A stretch of 64,000 bases of DNA from Ignavibacteria bacterium (GTDB lineage Bacteria > Bacteroidota > Ignavibacteria > Ignavibacteriales > SURF-24). A program made the translations under genes and the position numbers. Every line of letters begins with the position of its first letter. The stretch's first letter is position 1. The notes under the pieces were generated by a model. The model ran no database searches, was not told where the DNA came from, and was given only the letters and a program-made list of their open reading frames with translations. Positions 23,731 to 53,843 of this stretch are shown here, one piece after another. The stretch is from positions 1 through 64,000 of the forward strand of contig JAAXKN010000012.1 of the NCBI GenBank assembly GCA_025612375.1. The letters run 5' to 3'.

Positions 23731-24900
23731 TTATTCAAAAGCCGGTAACCCGGTTATGTCTTCCCCCACAATTAGCGTATGCATCTCGTGCGTTCCCTCG
23801 TAAGTCTTTACAGACTCCAGGTTTGCAGAATGCCTCATAACGGGATACTCATCCAGTATGCCGTTGGCCCCGAGGATTTCTCTCGAGATGCGCGCAATTT
23901 CAAGCGCCTTTTCGCAGTTGTTTCTCTTGGCAAGTGAAACATGTGTGTGTTTTAACGTGCCTTCGTCTTTCATGCGCCCCAGACGGTAATTTAAGAGCTG
24001 CGCTTTTGTAATTTCACTCAGCATATAAACCAGCTTTTCCTGCGTCATCTGGTAGGCTGCAATAGGTTTGCTGAACTGAACTCTCGACTTTGCATAATCA
24101 AGTGCCGCAGTGTAGCATGCCATCATAGCCCCAACAACGCCCCAGGCAATTCCATAGCGGGCCTGGTTTAAGCACATTAAAGCACTTTTGAGCCCTTTTG
24201 TATCCGGCAGCTTCATTTCCTCAGGAACAAAAACATCCTGGAAAATCAGTTCCGAAGTAACTGATGCCCTAAGGGAGTGCTTTCCCTTCATTTCAGGAGC
24301 GCTGAAGCCCTTGCTCCCTTTTTCAACAAGAAAACCATGTACAGCGCCGTCTAACTTGGCCCAGACAACTGCCACGTCGGCAATAGTGCCGTTTGTAATC
24401 CACATCTTGGCGCCGTTTAAGATGTAACCCCCGTCCGCTTTCTCAGCCTTGGTTACCATGCCGCCGGGGTTAGACCCGAAGTCGGGCTCCGTAAGGCCGA
24501 AACATCCTATTTTCTCTGCGCTGGCAAGTCTGGGAAGCCAATGCGATTTCTGCTCCTCGCTTCCAAAGGTAAATATTGGATACATTACCAGAGCGCTCTG
24601 CACCGATGCAAAGCTCCTTATGCCGCTGTCGCCCCTTTCGAGCTCCTGCATTACAAGGCCGTAAGCCACATTGTTCATTTCGGCACAGCCGTAGCTTTGA
24701 GGAAGTGTGGAGCCGAATAGCCCCAGTTCAGCCATTTTCGGGATGAGATGCCGCGGGAATTCACCTTTGCGGTTATATTCTTCAATTACTGGAATTATTT
24801 CACCGGACACGAACTCCCGTACAGTGTCCCTGACCAGCAGTTCATCTTCACTATAAAGACTGTCAATATTTAAATAGTCAACGCCGGTAAATTTTTCCAT
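23731..24900 (-). CDS. Glutaryl-CoA dehydrogenase-like acyl-CoA dehydrogenase
   Basis: 389-residue FAD enzyme. The C-terminal TYEGTHEMHTLIVGEDITG, with the putative catalytic base Glu368, and the central RYGIAWGVVGAMMACYTAAL (about 230-250) are the form seen in glutaryl-CoA dehydrogenases rather than in short-chain enzymes. That enzyme converts glutaryl-CoA to crotonyl-CoA in lysine and tryptophan breakdown. Decarboxylating and non-decarboxylating types cannot be told apart by eye. It lies about 100 bases downstream of recX with an AT-rich gap that could hold its own promoter. Confidence 0.88.
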   Translation of the reverse strand: MEKFTGVDYLNIDSLYSEDELLVRDTVREFVSGEIIPVIEEYNRKGEFPRHLIPKMAELGLFGSTLPQSYGCAEMNNVAYGLVMQELERGDSGIRSFASVQSALVMYPIFTFGSEEQKSHWLPRLASAEKIGCFGLTEPDFGSNPGGMVTKAEKADGGYILNGAKMWITNGTIADVAVVWAKLDGAVHGFLVEKGSKGFSAPEMKGKHSLRASVTSELIFQDVFVPEEMKLPDTKGLKSALMCLNQARYGIAWGVVGAMMACYTAALDYAKSRVQFSKPIAAYQMTQEKLVYMLSEITKAQLLNYRLGRMKDEGTLKHTHVSLAKRNNCEKALEIARISREILGANGILDEYPVMRHSANLESVKTYEGTHEMHTLIVGEDITGLPAFE

Positions 24901-24998
24901 TTGCAGTAAAAATTTTTAAATAGTATATAAAATTATTAAATGACGTAAAGATATGCAACCTTGTTTATAAATGAAATGCAGGATTATTACCCATAAGC

Positions 24999-37028: not shown

Positions 37029-39089
37029 TCACTTCAGCAGCATCAGTTTCCTGGAATACCTGAACTGCCCGGCCTGAATGCTGTAAATATATATCCCGCT
37101 TGGAAGCGCGGAACCGTCGAATCTTACACTGTGCTCCCCTGCCTTCTGCTCCTGGTTGACCAGTGTGGCCACTTCGCGCCCCAGCACGTCAAAGACTTTC
37201 AGAACAACCTTATCACTCTGAGGGATCTGATAAACCAAGGTTGTTGCAGGATTAAAAGGATTAGGGTAATTCTGCCTGAGAGCATATGTAAAATGCATTT
37301 CGGGCTTTACATCAGAAGGATCCACCCCCACCACTGCACTCCATGTTGACATATTAATAAACCTTGAGCTTTCAAGCCTCATTCCTGTAAAAGGACTTAC
37401 GGTATTCTGAGTCCCATTATCAATGGCTGTAACCGCATAGTAATACTCATTTCCTTTTACAACATTTGTATCCTCGAACTTAAGCGTATTCCTGTCGGTA
37501 GTTTCGTAGACCAGTTTCCAGATTTCCCCGTTTTTCTGGTCCAGGGGATCATTTGTAAGCATTGCCCCCGCTTTCCTGTAAACTCGCCATGCATTCCAGT
37601 CGTCAACACCCGTCACTGCATCCTTAAAGTATGAACCGTCGGGATAGCTCCACTTTACAGTAATGAATTCTTTCCCCGATTTAATCTCAATATCCGGAGG
37701 TGGAGGGGGTGCAGGAATGGAAGCATTCCTGGTCATGCGGTCCCACGTCCAGTTAGCCCTGTCCAAGGTCTGCTGAAGTGAATCGCGGCCTTTCAGTACC
37801 CATGCCTCTTTTTCGGCATCAGTTATTTTACTATTGAGCCAGAGCCTTCCTACAGAGTCGGCAGCCTTCCAGCCAATGCTTCCGGCACCGACGGCATAAA
37901 CGAAAGTTAGCGAGTCGTATCTGTTCTGGGCCGAATTTTTTGTAAGCTCATATGGGCCGGATGTTATAAATCTCATAGGGCCTTTCTGATAAGCCACACC
38001 GGAATTCTTTGGGGGCTCAACAGGAAAGCGGCCTCCTTCATCTGTTCCGAGATAGGTTTTTTTTATACCAATTGAATGGTCGCCCCAGAGATCTGTCTCT
38101 ATGCTGGCATGAGCCATTGAATAGGGCTGAGTTCTGTCATCAGAATGATCCTGATAGCTCTTGTCCGCATGCAGAAGCGTAAAACCCGGTACCTGAGTTG
38201 AATACAGGTGGCCTGTTGTTCTGTCAGGATCACCCGTGTCATCTTGTGAGCCGTTAGTAAAAGGCTGTGCTTGGGGATTATTTGCGTCCCTGTAGTAAGC
38301 AATATAAAGGCTATCGCGGGCTCCGCCTAACTTCGATGGAACTTTTATCCAGCTGTCGTAGTCATCTTCACCTTCATAGCTGAAAGCTCCTAAGGCATAG
38401 CGTTCCCCTGCCTTAGTAGGGCCGAAGCTGAAGGAGATCGGCCACCAGAAGCGTATAGTCTGGTCGGGAAGTTTAACCTTATAGTTTGCAGTGTCTGAAG
38501 GAAGCGCCTGTTCACCTGTAAACTTGTGCGTGGCCTTCCAGATGAAGAAATCCGAGAGAAGCGGGTTGCTGAAAGCATAGATTTCCACGTGGCTGCGTAA
38601 TCCGAACTGCTCCAGCATGTCTTCAAATTCAATTTTAATGTCCGACTTTAGGTTAGGATCCACTTTCCACGTGTAGGGCTTGCTTAAAACATTCCCGTCA
38701 ACTATAACTACAGGCGGGCGGTACCTGCGGGTCTCCTGTGCCCATACAGTTTTCCCATAATTCGTTAATGCATCTCCTTTTGCAAACACCAGTTTCTTTA
38801 TTCCCTTGATATCAATTATACCGCTGTCGTCAAGGACCAGAGGATTAAATATCTGGTAGAGCATATTGGATTTCCACTCATCTCTCGGCCAGTAAAATAT
38901 TTCTGTTGATGAAGAATTACTGGCTGCCAGGTCCCAGCTGAACTGGCTCTGCAGTCCGCCGTCCCCCATCATAGCATCCATTTTCATGTGAATGTTTCCC
39001 ACATCAAGCACCATTGGCGGAGGTAAAGTCTGGGAAAAGGCAAATGATGAAATAAGAGCCAAAACAGAAAAGATTTTCAGTAAATTCAA
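37029..39089 (-). CDS. Large secreted T9SS cargo protein
   Basis: 686 residues. A signal peptide (LLKIFSVLALISSFAFSQ) precedes about 460 residues without a recognised domain, then a proline spacer APPPPPDIEI and an FnIII-like region (about 470-580). The last 80 residues are a sorting domain starting RQNYPNPFNPATT and ending RKLMLLK. It should be secreted by the type IX system. The start is TTG 39089, supported by GAGGTG four bases upstream and by the signal peptide; the next Met lies beyond the signal peptide. Function unknown. Confidence 0.85.
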   Translation of the reverse strand: MNLLKIFSVLALISSFAFSQTLPPPMVLDVGNIHMKMDAMMGDGGLQSQFSWDLAASNSSSTEIFYWPRDEWKSNMLYQIFNPLVLDDSGIIDIKGIKKLVFAKGDALTNYGKTVWAQETRRYRPPVVIVDGNVLSKPYTWKVDPNLKSDIKIEFEDMLEQFGLRSHVEIYAFSNPLLSDFFIWKATHKFTGEQALPSDTANYKVKLPDQTIRFWWPISFSFGPTKAGERYALGAFSYEGEDDYDSWIKVPSKLGGARDSLYIAYYRDANNPQAQPFTNGSQDDTGDPDRTTGHLYSTQVPGFTLLHADKSYQDHSDDRTQPYSMAHASIETDLWGDHSIGIKKTYLGTDEGGRFPVEPPKNSGVAYQKGPMRFITSGPYELTKNSAQNRYDSLTFVYAVGAGSIGWKAADSVGRLWLNSKITDAEKEAWVLKGRDSLQQTLDRANWTWDRMTRNASIPAPPPPPDIEIKSGKEFITVKWSYPDGSYFKDAVTGVDDWNAWRVYRKAGAMLTNDPLDQKNGEIWKLVYETTDRNTLKFEDTNVVKGNEYYYAVTAIDNGTQNTVSPFTGMRLESSRFINMSTWSAVVGVDPSDVKPEMHFTYALRQNYPNPFNPATTLVYQIPQSDKVVLKVFDVLGREVATLVNQEQKAGEHSVRFDGSALPSGIYIYSIQAGQFRYSRKLMLLK

Positions 39090-46920: not shown

Positions 46921-49900
46921 ATGGATTTAAAACGATCACTCGGTTTTTTTCAGAAGGCATCTGCTTCCTGTCATGACGATGAAAAATTAATTCAATATAT
47001 CAACCTTAGACTGGCAGCTTTAGGAGCTCCGGTTTTCGGGCAAAAAGGTGAAAATTCTGAATTTATTGAAATTGCGCGTGATCTGATTGCCAATCATCAG
47101 GAAAAAAACCGTCTTCTTTCTAATTATTTATGCCCGGCTGACCAGCGTATCCAGAACTTCCTGGATAAGTATTTAAGCGACGTTAAGCTGGATGAACCTG
47201 TGCGTATGCCTGCACAAACATTCCTGCTCGACAGGCATGGTATTGCAAGGGTGCTTTCCCTTCCGCCAGATAAATGTGAGTTTGTTTCTGATATTATAAG
47301 CACTTATAGAATAAAACAGGGAATTCTGCATAACCCTAAAAACGACCGCAGAACTACTAAAGGCGTTTTTCACATTTCCGAAGGGGGGCTCCCTATTCCG
47401 GATGACAAAATTGCCGTCCCCAAACACGCCTTTGCAGGACTCCTTTACCGTGCACTTCATCCGCCAAAAGAGCTGATGAAGCTTCCTTTTACTTCTTCAC
47501 AGCACAACCAGGCAGAGGTTTTCGTATCGCTGCTCATGCGCCCTGTTGTCTGCCCTGCCGTTGAAGGCTTTACTCCCGAAAAATCTATGGAAACAAGATT
47601 TTTCGTCCCCGGTAACCTTGTGGGCAACCTGGACTTTGTAGAGTCCATTTTCGGCAACGCAGGCGACCCGTATCTGCCTGAGAACGACGCGGGCCTTGAC
47701 GTTGAACACTGGACCGGCCACACGGGATGCATTATACTTGCACCGCAGCTCACGACAGTGACTAAAAAGGAACTTGGACTCCCGCATATATCTGAGGCCA
47801 CAGAACGCCAGAAGCGCGACGGAATGTGCTATGAAAACGATTCCGATCTCTATAACGGCGGCAGCGCTTTTAAGGTTACCTGCCGCACCGAAGAGGGCGT
47901 TATTATTACGGTTATTGCCGATAACTACTTCGGCTACTGCAAAAAAGAGGTTAAAACCCAGATCAGCTATTCGGCAAACCTCTTCGGAAACTCGGAGGAG
48001 GAACACGCCGGCGGCGCAATCGCATTCCCAAGCTATGGCCTTGGTGATAAATTCCACGACGATAACCAGGTCAGAAAGGAAGGCCATTCCTTTAAAGAAG
48101 TATCTCAGCTTTTCAAGGATGTAATGGACCTGCAGCCTGAAGGCTACGGCATCGATAAAAATTTCCGCGACATTATCTACGTTCCCGAAGACGCAAGGTT
48201 TAACCTTACAACTCAAACGGTCGGCTGGAAAAAAGGTGAAAAGGACGTTGTAATTAAACTCCTTACTTCAAATACCTACATTCTCCCTGCCGGCTATAAG
48301 ATCCGCCTTGAGAAGAACCCGTCGGTTCCAACCTGGCGGCTTATTGGTACCGTTGCCGAAGGAACCTTCTGCCATAAGCCTTCTACGGTCTCGGGCGGAG
48401 GTAAGTCAGAAATCTCTAAATCCATTTCGGATTCAATTATATACGGACCTTTCTTTGTCGCCGATTTCCAGAAGGACCTGGAATTTGTGGACAGAATAAT
48501 AAACTACGACTACAGCAAACGCTACAAGATCCCTGTTAAGAAGACTACCCCAAGCCGCCCGCTTCTTAGCACTCAGAGGTCCCTGGGCTCTGTAATTAAG
48601 ATGCTCACCCCCTCACCAAGCGAGTATACGGATGAATACAACAAATGGCTCGATTCAATACCGCAGTATATAAAGGGACTTGTATTCATTATTAAAAGGT
48701 TCTACCGCCACGAATGGATGGGCAACTGGCGCGAGCATTTCAGCGTGGATATTGTTAACGGCAATACAGGCAATGAACTTAAATACAATAACCGCAAACT
48801 TGTTGCAAGCTACTTAAGAGTCGGTCTGCAGAAGGATAAATCGTGGCGTACATTCAAGCTGAGGCAGGATTTTATTGCCGCCGATAAGCTACAGCTCGAA
48901 GACGACATTACGGCTTCTGTTGTAGTGCCTGCCGATAAGCTTTTAACTGTCCTCAATAAGGACTACGATAACCAGAGCGTAAAGTTTACACAGAACTGCG
49001 AGTACCGCTTCTTCCAGCGCCCCGATGACGCTATTATAAGAGGATACGACAAGCAGGCTGAAAAGGATATATCTTCACCTGGAACTTTCATATCCAACTT
49101 CCAGCCGCTGCAGCTCCAGGATGCAGAGGCGCTGATTGAAGACGCCATAGGCTTCGATACCTATACCGAACCGATGAAGGCTTTCATACAGAGCTTTGCA
49201 GGCCAGAACTCATGCAAATACTTTGTATCCTCGGCTCACCCCCGCATGGTGGATGGCAAGCCGTCAAAGAATATGAGGTATCTGCAGAACAGGCCCGATA
49301 TTATTAACCCCAGGGATAAGTATATTGCCGAGATAGGTACACGCTTCTTCCGCCGCATAACGGTGGATAAGCCGGTCTACTTCCCCGTTAACTCGGTATT
49401 GCCCGGAAGGCGCAACAATCCGCCCGACCCTCAGGCAAACATACGCGCTCTTGCAGTATATAACCCTATACATTACCAGGAACTGCCTGAGATGTTCATG
49501 GATTTTATCTGCAGCCTTACGGGAAAATCACCTTCAACTACGGGAGCAGGCTCCGAAGGCGCCCTTACAAAGGGTCCTTTTAATGCCGTCAGCCCTATAG
49601 TTGACCTGAATAACGCGCTCGTTTCCTTTATTCTTACGGGTTACGACTGCTACACAACCGCGGCAGGTTATGTAGGCCCTAACGTCAGGGTCGATCACGA
49701 TATAAGCCTTCTTATTCCTGAAATCTGGTGCCGCCTTTCGGTTAATGAAAGGGATCCGGAATTCCTCATAAAGGAAGGATACCTGGAAAAACTGAGCGAC
49801 TTTGAACACAATGGACAGAAGGTGCTGGCAAGCCGCCTTGGCTACCGCATTACAGATAAATTCGTTCATACATTTTTCGGAAGGGTCTTCGAAAACCCGA

Positions 49901-50397
49901 ATTCTGTATTCAGCGATGAAATGCTGAAGCCGGAAATCCAGGATATGGACGTTTATGCCGACGGCGTTAATAATATTGTGGAAGCACAGCAGAGGGTTGC
50001 ACAGGCTTATTTCGAGGATGGAAGCATCGAGGACGCCTGCCCTGCCCTTAAGGCTCTGCTTTACATTATGGCCAAAGGCAGCTACGAAGGTAAAACGGCT
50101 GAAGATCCCGAGATCAGGAATATGTTTACAAAGTGGCACCTGCTCTCAAGCCAGTGGTACAACGACCGCCTGAAGGCAAAGCAGGAAGGCGACATTGCAC
50201 TCTGGGAGCGTCATGTACGCTATCTACAGAACTTCCTGAAGAAATCCAGCCACCTCGACGTTGCAGAACAGCTTAAGATAGGCAAACGCCTTAAGTCTGC
50301 CCAGGCGCAGCTTAAGAAGGTTTCGTCCCCAGCCTACTTAAAAGAGCTGCACGGCACAATCGGCACAGACCCCGTATTCAGAAAAAAAATAGACTAA
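46921..50397 (+). CDS. 1158-residue protein, candidate PPi-type PEP carboxykinase
   Basis: Very large soluble protein without signal peptide or membrane segment. Conserved-looking blocks are GHTGCIILAPQLTTVTKKEL (about 266-285), VIITVIADNYFGYCKKEVK (about 327-345), a P-loop-like SGGGKSEIS (491-499), and SSAHPRMVDGKPSKNMRYLQ in the second half. The length and the P-loop-like motif fit the PPi-dependent PEP carboxykinases of Entamoeba and Propionibacterium (about 1140 residues), which interconvert PEP and oxaloacetate using pyrophosphate. Relation to DUF4914 proteins is also possible. The assignment rests on memory of the family, not on an alignment. A terminator follows, so gatE-gatD is probably a separate unit. 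Confidence 0.5.
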   Translation: MDLKRSLGFFQKASASCHDDEKLIQYINLRLAALGAPVFGQKGENSEFIEIARDLIANHQEKNRLLSNYLCPADQRIQNFLDKYLSDVKLDEPVRMPAQTFLLDRHGIARVLSLPPDKCEFVSDIISTYRIKQGILHNPKNDRRTTKGVFHISEGGLPIPDDKIAVPKHAFAGLLYRALHPPKELMKLPFTSSQHNQAEVFVSLLMRPVVCPAVEGFTPEKSMETRFFVPGNLVGNLDFVESIFGNAGDPYLPENDAGLDVEHWTGHTGCIILAPQLTTVTKKELGLPHISEATERQKRDGMCYENDSDLYNGGSAFKVTCRTEEGVIITVIADNYFGYCKKEVKTQISYSANLFGNSEEEHAGGAIAFPSYGLGDKFHDDNQVRKEGHSFKEVSQLFKDVMDLQPEGYGIDKNFRDIIYVPEDARFNLTTQTVGWKKGEKDVVIKLLTSNTYILPAGYKIRLEKNPSVPTWRLIGTVAEGTFCHKPSTVSGGGKSEISKSISDSIIYGPFFVADFQKDLEFVDRIINYDYSKRYKIPVKKTTPSRPLLSTQRSLGSVIKMLTPSPSEYTDEYNKWLDSIPQYIKGLVFIIKRFYRHEWMGNWREHFSVDIVNGNTGNELKYNNRKLVASYLRVGLQKDKSWRTFKLRQDFIAADKLQLEDDITASVVVPADKLLTVLNKDYDNQSVKFTQNCEYRFFQRPDDAIIRGYDKQAEKDISSPGTFISNFQPLQLQDAEALIEDAIGFDTYTEPMKAFIQSFAGQNSCKYFVSSAHPRMVDGKPSKNMRYLQNRPDIINPRDKYIAEIGTRFFRRITVDKPVYFPVNSVLPGRRNNPPDPQANIRALAVYNPIHYQELPEMFMDFICSLTGKSPSTTGAGSEGALTKGPFNAVSPIVDLNNALVSFILTGYDCYTTAAGYVGPNVRVDHDISLLIPEIWCRLSVNERDPEFLIKEGYLEKLSDFEHNGQKVLASRLGYRITDKFVHTFFGRVFENPNSVFSDEMLKPEIQDMDVYADGVNNIVEAQQRVAQAYFEDGSIEDACPALKALLYIMAKGSYEGKTAEDPEIRNMFTKWHLLSSQWYNDRLKAKQEGDIALWERHVRYLQNFLKKSSHLDVAEQLKIGKRLKSAQAQLKKVSSPAYLKELHGTIGTDPVFRKKID

Positions 50398-50538: not shown

Positions 50539-52461
50539 ATGCAGGACTTTCTCTTTAAAGCTTTTAGTGAAATGACACCTGAGGATTACCGAAGGGTCGA
50601 CTTCAAATCCGGCCTCGAAATCCATCAGCAGCTCCTTACAAAAAAGAAACTCTTCTGCCGCTGCCCCGCGGGCATTTACAGCACCAGCTATAACGCTGAA
50701 ATACTGCGCCATATGAGGCCTACACTCTCCGAGCTCGGCGAATACGACGGCACGGCACTAATGGAGTTTAAGACAAAAAAAGAAATCATCTACCAGATTA
50801 ACCGCGATACCGTCTGCACGTACGAGATGGACGACACTCCCCCCTTTGAAATAAACGACGAAGCCCTCGATATCGCTCTCGGTATCGGCATGCTCTTAAA
50901 CTGCACTACGGTCGACGAGATCCATATTGCACGCAAACAGTACCTCGACGGCAGCATCCCTACAGGGTTCCAGAGGACTTCAATTATCGCGCTCGACGGC
51001 AGGATACCTTTTAAGGACCGGCACATAAATATCGTCCAGATTTCAATCGAGGAGGACTCCTGCCGCGAGGTCAGCGATATTGGCCACCGCAGGGTCTACC
51101 TTTCAGACCGCCTCGGCATGCCTTTAATTGAAACCGTAACAGCACCCGATATGCTTACACCCCAGGAAGTTGCAGCCGCGGCCGGCATTTGCCGCAAACT
51201 AGTTAAATCTACGGGCAGGGTCCGCACCGGAATCGGCTCGGCAAGGCAGGACGTAAACGTCAGCGTTGAAGGGGGTACAAGAATTGAAATTAAAGGGGTA
51301 CCCAGAATCCCCATGATCCCGCTTCTGACATATAACGAAGCCATGAGGCAGTGGAACCTCCTGCGCTTAAAAGAAGAACTCTTCAGGCGCGGCATTACTC
51401 CCCAAACCTTCCAGGCCAGGTTTGAAGACGTTACAAAGCTCCTTAAAAGAACTTACTTCCTCCCGGTGCAGAATGCCCTCAGCCAGGGCATGATAGTTAA
51501 ATGCGCACTCCTTAAGGGCTTCCGCGGGCTCCTTAACTGGCCCACACAAACCGACACCTTCTTCTCAAAGGAAATATCGGACAGAGTCAGAGTAATAGCA
51601 TGCCTTACTACTCTGCCTAATATAATCCACTCCGACAGCAAGGGTGATACGCTTTCTTCAAGCGATTGGCAGAAAATAAAGAAAAGCATGGGCGCAAGCG
51701 AAGATGACGCAATGGTTCTCGTATGGGGAAACCCCGCCGACGCCGAAATGGGTGCCTGCGAAATTATTATTAGAGCCAAAGAGGCAACCATCGGCGTGCC
51801 TTCTGAAACCCGTCAGGCACTGCGCGACGGGACAAACGGATTTGAACGCATACTGCCGGGACCCGACAGAATGTACCCCGATACGGACCTTCCTCCTAAA
51901 AAAATTACAAGGGAAAGACTTTCAAAAATACGCCTGGGACTCCCTGAACCGGTCTGGGAAAGGGAAGCCTGGTACAGAAGCCTGAAAGTCCCCGAAGACG
52001 TAATAGGGCCGCTTGCGGAATCCCGTTATGCTGCCCTCTTTATGAAACTCGTTGCAAAGTGGAATATCGATCCTGTTCTGGCCTCAGTTGCACTCATACA
52101 GTACCCAAAGCGCCTTAGCCATAAGGGCTTAGATACGGGAGTACTGACTGAAGCGATATTTGAAGAGATATTCCTGGCGTTCAAACAGGGCAGGCTTGCG
52201 CGCGAAGGAGTTCTCCCGGCTCTCGAAAATGCGGCCCGCTCGGGAAGCTTTTTTGTGGACATGCTCCCCCCGGCATGCTCGGAACAGGAACTCATGCATT
52301 TCCTTTCACTTGCCCGCAGTGAGCTCTCAGGCATTAAGCTCCATAAACCCGCATGCGAAAAGACCGTCCTCATGAGCCTCGTCATGAAACACCTTAGAGG
52401 CAGGGTTGAAGGACGCAGGGTAATGGAAACAATCGGTACTCTTTTCCAGGAGGCGAAATGA
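50539..52461 (+). CDS. gatE: Archaeal-type Glu-tRNA(Gln) amidotransferase subunit E
   Basis: 640 residues. With GatD it would amidate Glu-tRNA(Gln) to Gln-tRNA(Gln): GatE phosphorylates the glutamyl ester and channels ammonia from GatD. The catalytic cradle begins GLEIHQQL (25-32), followed by KLFCRCPAG with candidate zinc cysteines, then TGFQRTSIIALDGR, SIEEDSCREVSD and ARQDVNVSVEGGTRIEIKG. A GAD-like AspRS-type insertion (about 375-480, DRVRVIAC to RMYPDTD) distinguishes GatE from bacterial GatB. A helical tail (YqeY-like) follows. ATG 50539 is chosen because GGAAGG lies seven bases before it; a TTG at 50461 and an ATG at 50524 are also in frame. Overlaps gatD by ATGA. Confidence 0.93.
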   Translation: MQDFLFKAFSEMTPEDYRRVDFKSGLEIHQQLLTKKKLFCRCPAGIYSTSYNAEILRHMRPTLSELGEYDGTALMEFKTKKEIIYQINRDTVCTYEMDDTPPFEINDEALDIALGIGMLLNCTTVDEIHIARKQYLDGSIPTGFQRTSIIALDGRIPFKDRHINIVQISIEEDSCREVSDIGHRRVYLSDRLGMPLIETVTAPDMLTPQEVAAAAGICRKLVKSTGRVRTGIGSARQDVNVSVEGGTRIEIKGVPRIPMIPLLTYNEAMRQWNLLRLKEELFRRGITPQTFQARFEDVTKLLKRTYFLPVQNALSQGMIVKCALLKGFRGLLNWPTQTDTFFSKEISDRVRVIACLTTLPNIIHSDSKGDTLSSSDWQKIKKSMGASEDDAMVLVWGNPADAEMGACEIIIRAKEATIGVPSETRQALRDGTNGFERILPGPDRMYPDTDLPPKKITRERLSKIRLGLPEPVWEREAWYRSLKVPEDVIGPLAESRYAALFMKLVAKWNIDPVLASVALIQYPKRLSHKGLDTGVLTEAIFEEIFLAFKQGRLAREGVLPALENAARSGSFFVDMLPPACSEQELMHFLSLARSELSGIKLHKPACEKTVLMSLVMKHLRGRVEGRRVMETIGTLFQEAK

Positions 52462-53843
52462 ATTCAGACATTTATAAAGGCTACAGGGGTGAAGCACTGG
52501 ACGCACTGAAAAACTTCGGCGCAGAGGTCTGGAGCGACGTTGAGATCAAAACTTCAACCGGGAAATTTACAGGCATTATACTCCCCCGCTCCGAAACAGC
52601 CGACTCTCACCACATTGTAATTAAGCTCCGTTCGGGCTACAACATAGGAATTTTTGCCGGAGGAATTCAGGCAATTACTGTTACAGGACACAAGGAAGCT
52701 CACTATAAAATACCAGAAAAGGAGTTCCCCTATAACCCGCAGAAACCTAAGGTTAAACTTCTCGGCACCGGCGGAACAATTGCAAGCCGCCTCGACTACC
52801 GTACGGGAGCCGTTATACCGGCTTTTTCACCCGGTGAACTTTATGGCTCTGTTCCCGAACTTGCTGATATCTGCAACCTGGAGACTGAAAAACTCTACGG
52901 CGTCTTCAGCGAAAATATGGGTCCCGAACAGTGGATCGGTACGGCTCAGGCTATTGGACGCGAAATTGAAAAAGGGGTCCAGGGAATTGTAATCGGGCAC
53001 GGAACTGACACAATGCACCACACGGCGGCCATTCTGTCCTTTATGGTGCAGAACACTCCTGTTCCAATTGTTATGGTGGGATCCCAGCGCTCAAGCGACC
53101 GCCCGTCTTCAGATGCGGCGCTGAACCTGATGCACAGCGTCAAGACCGCGGCCGAAAGCGACATTGCAGAAATAATGGTATGCATGTTCGGCCCTACTTC
53201 CGACGCGTACGGACTATTGCACCGCGGAACCCGCGTAAGAAAAATGCACTCAAGCTACAGGTCTACTTTCCGCACCATTGGAGACATACCGATTGCAATG
53301 GTAAGCCGCGAGAAGATTACGCCTTTAAGACAGGATTATAAGAAAAGGCGCAGGGACCACGGCGTTACAATAAATACGGCCTTTGAAGAAAAAGTCGGCA
53401 TTGTTTATTACTACCCGAATATGAAGCCCGACATAATTGACTCAATGATCGATAACGGCTACAAGGGAATTGTAATTGCAGGAACGGGTTTAGGACACGT
53501 CAACAAGCCTCTTTACCCCGCGCTAAAAAGAGCCCATGAGAAAAATATTGCGGTATATATGACGGTTCAGACCCTGTGGGGATATGTGCAGATGTATGTT
53601 TATGATACCGGGCGTGACATGATGGAGCTCGGTGTGGTCCCCACGGCCAATATGCTCCCCGAGGTTGCTTATGTTAAGCTCGGCTGGGCACTGGGGCAGA
53701 CGCAGGACCCACAGAAGGTTAAGGACATAATGCTCACTCCCATAGCAGGCGAAATTACAGAACGCGAACCGAGCAACGGCTACTTAATTTACCAGGGCGG
53801 CATCCCCGAGGTTGAAGAGTTCATATCCAAATACGTCAAATAA
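52458..53843 (+). CDS. gatD: Archaeal-type Glu-tRNA(Gln) amidotransferase subunit D
   Basis: 461-residue glutaminase subunit that releases ammonia for GatE. An N-terminal beta-barrel domain (about 1-90) is followed by an asparaginase-like domain (about 95-430). The four catalytic residues expected from archaeal GatD are visible: Thr107 in GTGGTIAS, Thr183-Asp184 in HGTDTM and Lys262 in RKMHSS. The segment SRLDYRTGAV after TGGTIA and the extra N-terminal domain separate it from plain L-asparaginases. It starts inside the gatE stop (ATGA) and is followed by a terminator. Confidence 0.95.
   Translation: MNSDIYKGYRGEALDALKNFGAEVWSDVEIKTSTGKFTGIILPRSETADSHHIVIKLRSGYNIGIFAGGIQAITVTGHKEAHYKIPEKEFPYNPQKPKVKLLGTGGTIASRLDYRTGAVIPAFSPGELYGSVPELADICNLETEKLYGVFSENMGPEQWIGTAQAIGREIEKGVQGIVIGHGTDTMHHTAAILSFMVQNTPVPIVMVGSQRSSDRPSSDAALNLMHSVKTAAESDIAEIMVCMFGPTSDAYGLLHRGTRVRKMHSSYRSTFRTIGDIPIAMVSREKITPLRQDYKKRRRDHGVTINTAFEEKVGIVYYYPNMKPDIIDSMIDNGYKGIVIAGTGLGHVNKPLYPALKRAHEKNIAVYMTVQTLWGYVQMYVYDTGRDMMELGVVPTANMLPEVAYVKLGWALGQTQDPQKVKDIMLTPIAGEITEREPSNGYLIYQGGIPEVEEFISKYVK

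Follow-up and report, generated by a model that had tools for sequence, protein, structure and literature searches.

A GatE-GatD amidotransferase pair of the Ignavibacteria that goes with glutaminyl-tRNA synthetase

The window analysed here, a 64,000-nucleotide stretch of an Ignavibacteria bacterium genome (assembly GCA_025612375.1, contig JAAXKN010000012.1, positions 1 to 64,000 of the forward strand), contains two adjacent genes, gatE and gatD, whose predicted products correspond to the two subunits of GatDE, the glutamyl-tRNA(Gln) (Glu-tRNA(Gln)) amidotransferase. This enzyme has been stated to be restricted to the archaea (PMC9499178, 2022; PMC8007984, 2021), and in a survey covering 547 genera of bacteria none was known to possess the two pathways to Gln-tRNA(Gln) together (PMC4206432). 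Our own search of the literature, mostly without subscription journals, found no account of a bacterial GatDE. The features of the locus are listed in Table 1.

The original prediction read these genes as a true GatE-GatD pair with an ATGA overlap, an AspRS-like insertion in GatE, an N-terminal domain in GatD and a full set of catalytic residues, and the family models and alignments agree with it on each of these points. In profile searches NF003107 gives the GatE product 522.5 bits (cut-off 456) and TIGR00134 gives it 449.8 bits (cut-off 319.6), whereas the GatB models, with cut-offs of at least 314, give it only 57–124 bits. GatD reaches 521.3 bits on NF003217 (cut-off 310) and 517.7 bits on TIGR02153 (cut-off 324), and includes the GatD N-terminal domain (PF18195) together with both asparaginase domains (PF00710 and PF17763); that the GatD models outscore the asparaginase model TIGR00519 favours a true GatD. 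Alignment of GatE with its Pyrococcus abyssi counterpart (1zq1) extends from end to end (residues 16–638, E 2.5e-100), as does that with Methanothermobacter thermautotrophicus GatE (2d6f), with the AspRS-like insertion included, and GatD aligns with the GatDs of the same two structures. Thr107, Thr183, Asp184 and Lys262 of GatD occur without exception in the 98 bacterial GatDs compared and in the two archaeal GatDs of known structure. The gatE start codon is an ATG at 50539, and gatD is preceded by an AGGAGG ribosome-binding site. At the level of sequence these comparisons confirm a true and intact GatE-GatD pair with all of its catalytic residues present.

Table 1. Features of the gatE-gatD locus (positions in the window)
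Feature	Position	Strand	Basis
gatE, 640 aa, Glu-tRNA(Gln) amidotransferase subunit E (kinase/transamidase subunit)	50539..52461	+	NF003107, TIGR00134, full-length 1zq1/2d6f match
GatE cradle, N-terminal part, residues 1-283, with GLEIHQQL motif	50539..51387	+	alignment; bounds approximate
GatE AspRS-like insertion, about residues 284-418	51388..51792	+	alignment to 1zq1/2d6f
GatE cradle, C-terminal part, about residues 419-460, GVPSETRQALRDGTNGFERILPGPDRMYPDTDLPP	51793..51918	+	alignment
GatE helical and tail domains, about residues 461-640, predicted all-helical	51919..52458	+	conservation, structure prediction
gatD, 461 aa, Glu-tRNA(Gln) amidotransferase subunit D (asparaginase-type glutaminase subunit)	52458..53843	+	NF003217, TIGR02153, PF18195, PF00710, PF17763
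ATGA overlap of gatE stop and gatD start	52458..52461	+	sequence
GatD stretch with catalytic codons Thr107 (52776-52778), Thr183 (53004-53006), Asp184 (53007-53009) and Lys262 (53241-53243)	52776..53243	+	
GatD C-terminal tail, residues 438-461, PSNGYLIYQGGIPEVEEFISKYVK	53769..53840	+	beyond archaeal family models; about 90% conserved in bacteria

Structure prediction is consistent with these assignments. The GatE model, which is weak (mean predicted local distance difference test, pLDDT, of 62), has 1zq1 and 2d6f as its top Foldseek matches, and its helical and tail regions are predicted to fold, all of them as helices. The GatD model is weak as well (mean pLDDT 56), and with a pLDDT below 50 in the C-terminal tail it does not allow that tail to be placed.

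Relatives of the pair are found in many bacteria. In the class Ignavibacteria GatE is carried by 35 of the 129 genomes sampled, the carriers being read from a search with GatB_N as a lower score class (about 137–174 bits) with open reading frames near 640 aa in length, and GatD scores above its cut-off in 30 of the 395 genomes of the phylum, all of them belonging to this class. When 84,980 species genomes were searched with the window GatE, 333 relatives were returned, the best 80 of which share 61–85% identity with it and are all labelled as bacterial, while archaeal ones may be among the other 253; most of these 80 are Ignavibacteria, Melioribacter and Bacteroidota, followed by Kapabacteria, Aminicenantes, one Acidobacteria, KSB1 and a few doubtful bins. 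The carriers labelled as Kapabacteria, Aminicenantes and KSB1 are metagenome-assembled genomes (MAGs).

Both genes are under strong purifying selection. Comparison of the window with its nearest relative (L106) gives ratios of nonsynonymous to synonymous change (dN/dS) of 0.070 for GatE (0.05 for residues 1–545 and 0.22 for the tail) and 0.024 for GatD, at a dS of about 1.4–1.5 that is near saturation; less diverged pairs give 0.03–0.07 for GatE and 0.01–0.03 for GatD, with a single Aminicenantes pair deviating (0.23 and 0.12 respectively). These low ratios indicate that both genes are maintained and in use, as had been predicted from the intact catalytic residues. The order gatE-gatD is retained in nearly all loci that carry both genes, and we found no conserved operon partner, the commonest other neighbours being present in at most 24 of 110 loci.

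Conservation is unevenly distributed over the two proteins. Across bacterial phyla GatD is 83–88% identical and GatE 60–67%; within GatE the cradle shows 78–85% identity among bacteria (78% mean pairwise for its N-terminal part, the domain bounds being approximate), the AspRS-like insertion a mean pairwise identity of 61%, and the tail (residues 546–640), its least conserved part, only 28%. In the one pair of archaeal GatEs compared the corresponding values are 58–76% for the cradle and 38% for the tail. There are 44 near-universal positions common to GatB, archaeal GatE and bacterial GatE, a further 54 common to archaeal and bacterial GatE and not to GatB, and more than 30 that are fixed to different residues in the bacterial and archaeal proteins. 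Every examined bacterial GatD whose sequence extends to the C-terminus finishes with a tail of the consensus (T)EREPSNGYLIxQGGxPEVEEFISKYxK, and among the 98 bacterial GatDs residues 434–461 average 90% identity to the window GatD, compared with 83% for the body. Because both archaeal GatD family models stop at residue 437 of the window GatD and the solved archaeal chains end near there, residues 438–461 are an addition.

The genome from which the window derives is a 5.23-Mb assembly in 140 contigs, with a completeness of 100% and a contamination of 0.63%, and it encodes GatB and GatC (both on contig C34), GatA (C13), a true AsnRS (C39) and a full-length GlnRS (C1, positions 221241–222824; 785 bits), which lies in tandem with the single bacterial-type glutamyl-tRNA synthetase (GluRS), GluRS being first. 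Three systems bear on Gln-tRNA and Asn-tRNA here (the direct synthetases, GatCAB and GatDE), and GatDE replaces nothing. The earlier suggestion that it might have replaced the bacterial route is not supported for this genome, nor for the class, across which GatDE goes with GlnRS. Two tRNA-Gln genes were found (CUG and UUG), both with a U1:A72 pair, and no dedicated archaeal-type tRNA-Gln is present among those of the 46 tRNA matches in this genome that could be typed. A cluster of low-scoring tRNA-like genes lies between short open reading frames elsewhere in the genome (C29, positions 37220–38189; L101); it consists of Leu, Arg and two untyped matches that ARAGORN rejects, none of them seen to be Gln, and looks like a phage or mobile-element tRNA array. 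The absence of glutamine synthetase was considered as a reason for having GatDE, on the model of tRNA-dependent Asn synthesis, and rejected, the enzyme being present in complete carriers and in two copies in the window genome.

Among genomes of the class that are at least 90% complete, GlnRS is present in 29 of 30 with GatE versus 34 of 86 without it, two contig-edge GlnRS fragments being counted as present (Fisher p 1.5e-8, uncorrected for kinship, which inflates the test). The sole exception, G251, is likely to reflect an assembly gap, because its gltX is cut at a contig end at the point where glnS and asnS follow consecutively in its sister genome G055; the whole of that stretch is missing from G251. 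Contrasts within families number three only and agree in direction with the test: in f15 three genomes have both GatE and GlnRS and six have neither, in f11 the two vary together (two genomes with both, one with neither), and in f4 the only genome with GatE also has GlnRS. Direct adjacency of glnS and gatDE is seen in 2 of 109 loci (L089, in genome G014, and L165).

GatDE also persists where GatCAB does not. GatB and GatC are both missing from seven GatE-containing genomes (G172, G444, G160, G196, G465, G436 and G432), which are all at least 92% complete and belong to four families, and those of them that were checked have both AsnRS and GlnRS. By standard reasoning GatDE, the only tRNA-dependent amidotransferase found in these carriers, is not needed there for translation. 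Elsewhere in the class, three genomes (G009, G140 and G337) have GlnRS and AsnRS with no GatB, GatC or GatE found, so that their charging is fully direct, and one (G004), rated 100% complete, gave no hit with either the bacterial GluRS model or GlnRS.

The types of GluRS and tRNA-Gln in the carriers bear on what GatDE might act upon. The window genome's single GluRS has Arg at the position of Thermus thermophilus Arg358, as do those of all single-GluRS carriers examined, first ten and then eight more. While this residue is an unreliable mark of GluRS specificity and is not diagnostic in every case (PMC3927822), it points to a discriminating GluRS in most carriers, the window genome included; a non-discriminating GluRS in single-GluRS carriers is on these grounds unlikely, the only Tyr being that of a second GluRS in family f56. 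Members of this family (e.g. G395, G408 and G436) encode a pair of full GluRSs that differ at this position (Arg in one, Tyr in the other), in addition to GlnRS and GatDE, and the Tyr-type enzyme might make Glu-tRNA(Gln) for GatDE. In family f15 the Arg358 position is occupied by Tyr in the relatives that lack GlnRS and by Arg in the genomes with GatE and GlnRS, and the type of GluRS therefore seems to have changed together with the gain of GlnRS in these lineages. All of the carrier tRNA-Gln genes checked have U1:A72, the same as in relatives lacking GatE. Archaeal GatDE reads A1:U72 and the D-loop of tRNA-Gln (PMC9499178), and the bacterial enzyme must therefore either recognise tRNA-Gln in another way or not read it at all. 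One carrier (G014) has a further tRNA gene (L269; contig C46, positions 24847–24918) whose body is 88% identical to tRNA-Gln(UUG) and whose anticodon is GTG, typed as His by ARAGORN.

Gene content, intactness, selection, distribution and the types of tRNA and GluRS are direct observations, and with these in hand we judge the chances to be about even that bacterial GatDE is a functional tRNA-dependent amidotransferase that repairs or backs up Gln-tRNA(Gln) beside GlnRS. Because GlnRS accompanies GatDE and GluRS is mostly of an apparently discriminating type, the bulk of Gln-tRNA(Gln) should come from GlnRS. Some Glu-tRNA(Gln) would arise by error, either from GluRS or from GlnRS mis-using glutamate, or alternatively would be supplied by the second GluRS in some families, and the tie of GatDE to GlnRS suggests that it is on such molecules that GatDE acts. 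The chemistry is most likely that of the homologous enzymes, with GatD freeing ammonia from glutamine (or asparagine) and GatE activating the tRNA-bound glutamate with ATP by phosphorylation before amidating it; the substrate is most likely Glu-tRNA(Gln), which would be converted to Gln-tRNA(Gln) as a repair or a back-up.

Several considerations weigh against repair. On present knowledge it is not needed, since bacteria of the E. coli type, which have GlnRS, do without it; 34 complete genomes of the class have GlnRS and no GatDE, and in the window genome GatCAB could do the same job. Many GlnRS-less relatives also carry Arg at the Arg358 position of GluRS. Finally, the tRNA-Gln of carriers is without the A1:U72 pair read by archaeal GatDE (PMC9499178), and the GatE tail, the tRNA-binding part of the archaeal enzyme, is poorly conserved (28%).

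The main alternative, which we consider less likely, is that GatDE has left tRNA-Gln altogether and amidates some other glutamate, whether on another tRNA, in a protein or peptide, or in a small molecule, with the GatD tail forming part of the new function. The presence of GlnRS and AsnRS where GatCAB has been lost (G172, G444, G160, G196, G465 and others), leaving no amidotransferase needed for translation, is in keeping with such a change, as are the apparently discriminating type of GluRS, the uniform U1:A72 of carrier tRNA-Gln with no difference from relatives without GatE, the disparity between a GatD 83–88% identical across phyla and a GatE tail only 28% identical, and an invariant GatD tail that is new in bacteria. 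A clear tie to GlnRS would however not be expected for an unrelated substrate, the GatE cradle and the residues shared with GatB are intact, the helical and tail regions of GatE are still predicted to fold, and no partner gene is conserved nearby. We favour repair of Glu-tRNA(Gln), and propose tentatively, at somewhat less than even confidence, that this is a subfamily working only where GlnRS charges tRNA-Gln, either repairing Glu-tRNA(Gln) by amidation or serving a new, non-translational substrate recognised via the GatD tail.

It is quite improbable that GatDE provides the main or a replacing route to Gln-tRNA(Gln); this is the role of the family in archaea (PMC9499178), and in the f56 genomes GlnRS and GatDE are joined by a second, Tyr358-type GluRS, but a full-length GlnRS is encoded by the window genome and by essentially all complete genomes with GatE. 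We give slightly less credence still to GatD acting alone as an asparaginase or glutaminase with GatE as a passenger: GatD is related to the type I asparaginases and is far more conserved than GatE, but GatE is itself under strong purifying selection (0.07) with a cradle 78–85% identical among bacteria, gatE and gatD stay together, and the GatD-specific N-terminal domain is retained.

The origin of the pair was examined in a GatE tree rooted with GatB, in which the bacterial GatEs group with archaeal GatE and not with GatB. The 78 bacterial sequences form one clade and the three archaeal sequences the other, each with a Shimodaira-Hasegawa-like approximate likelihood ratio test (SH-aLRT) value of 99 and with stems of about 5 changes per column. 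The archaeal rows, one of them partial, are all long-branched; plasmid records yielded one partial haloarchaeal GatE, and none was found in viral contigs. Aminicenantes and KSB1 sequences fall inside an Ignavibacteria-rich clade, and the genes have therefore either moved between bacterial phyla or predate them. Bacterial GatDE thus appears to be a distinct, old and widespread subfamily and not a recent stray from the archaea, and the tree speaks against recent transfer into the window genome; with three long-branched archaeal rows, it is compatible with an old transfer in either direction and with an ancestral origin alike. The tree thus does not show the proposed passage of the genes from archaea to this lineage, the bacterial GatEs forming a separate clade in a comparison with only three archaeal rows.

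The immediate surroundings of the genes are bacterial, and on this and on codon use the original prediction was borne out. G+C content at third codon positions is 0.58 for gatE and 0.55 for gatD compared with 0.50 +/- 0.05 for the other window genes, and the flanking genes (pyrophosphate-dependent phosphoenolpyruvate (PEP) carboxykinase, Por_Secre_tail, Sel1 and DUF362) are bacterial in type, the carboxykinase lying upstream of gatE and a Sel1-repeat protein downstream of gatD on the opposite strand, with conservation as a neighbour seen for neither of the two. The carboxykinase (1158 aa, positions 46921–50397) has no Pfam or NCBIfam match, its best PDB matches being 6k31 (1225 bits) and 8e1u (1210 bits). 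That this genome recently acquired the pair from an archaeon, or that the pair is archaeal contamination, is scarcely credible, for while the family has been held to be archaeal only (PMC9499178, PMC8007984), the flanks and codon use are bacterial, 35 of the 129 class genomes carry GatE, bacterial GatE is one clade apart from the archaeal one, and the nearest relative among the best 80 of the 333 is an Ignavibacteria MAG at 85% identity; contamination is excluded by its low estimate (0.63%) and by relatives in many bacterial genomes.

The existence in bacteria of a GatDE subfamily that accompanies GlnRS, and that in several lineages has survived the loss of GatCAB, is relevant to the question of whether the last common ancestor already had GatDE, and a contig is not shown to be archaeal by a gene named GatD or GatE. 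The subfamily also makes testable the idea of an amidotransferase that serves as quality control beside a direct synthetase or that has acquired a new substrate; either repair confined to organisms with GlnRS or a new substrate would, if true, be a new use of a tRNA-dependent amidotransferase.

The proteins belong to the GatDE family, and it is their setting that differs from the archaeal pathway. As in archaeal GatDE (1zq1, 2d6f), both subunits are full length with the same domains and catalytic residues, and identity to the P. abyssi and M. thermautotrophicus proteins is about 46–51% for GatD and 40–43% for the GatE cradle. Unlike archaeal GatDE, the bacterial enzyme has a host with GlnRS, forms a separate clade, has a conserved 24-residue GatD tail, and is accompanied by U1:A72 tRNA-Gln and a bacterial GluRS. 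The archaeal pathway, in which GatDE is the sole route, goes with the lack of GlnRS and with A1:U72 tRNA-Gln, and the window genome has GlnRS and U1:A72. That pathway would also call for a non-discriminating GluRS, whereas the Arg of the window genome's GluRS points, though not diagnostically, to a discriminating one. In bacterial GatCAB, which the window genome also encodes, GatB shares with GatE the cradle fold and the 44 near-universal positions; unlike GatB, GatE has the AspRS-like insertion and scores far under the GatB cut-offs, and the glutaminase of GatDE is the asparaginase-type GatD, whereas that of GatCAB is the amidase-type GatA. Type I L-asparaginase has a catalytic domain like that of GatD, and the window GatD scores 392 bits on TIGR00519; unlike that enzyme, GatD has a GatD_N domain, a GatE partner and higher scores on the GatD models. 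A parallel in setting is the GatCAB kept beside GlnRS and AsnRS in Deinococcus, Thermus and Bdellovibrio (PMC4206432), where an amidotransferase is likewise retained despite direct routes; that GatCAB serves Asn via a non-discriminating AspRS, whereas archaeal GatDE serves Gln only, which is already made here by GlnRS.

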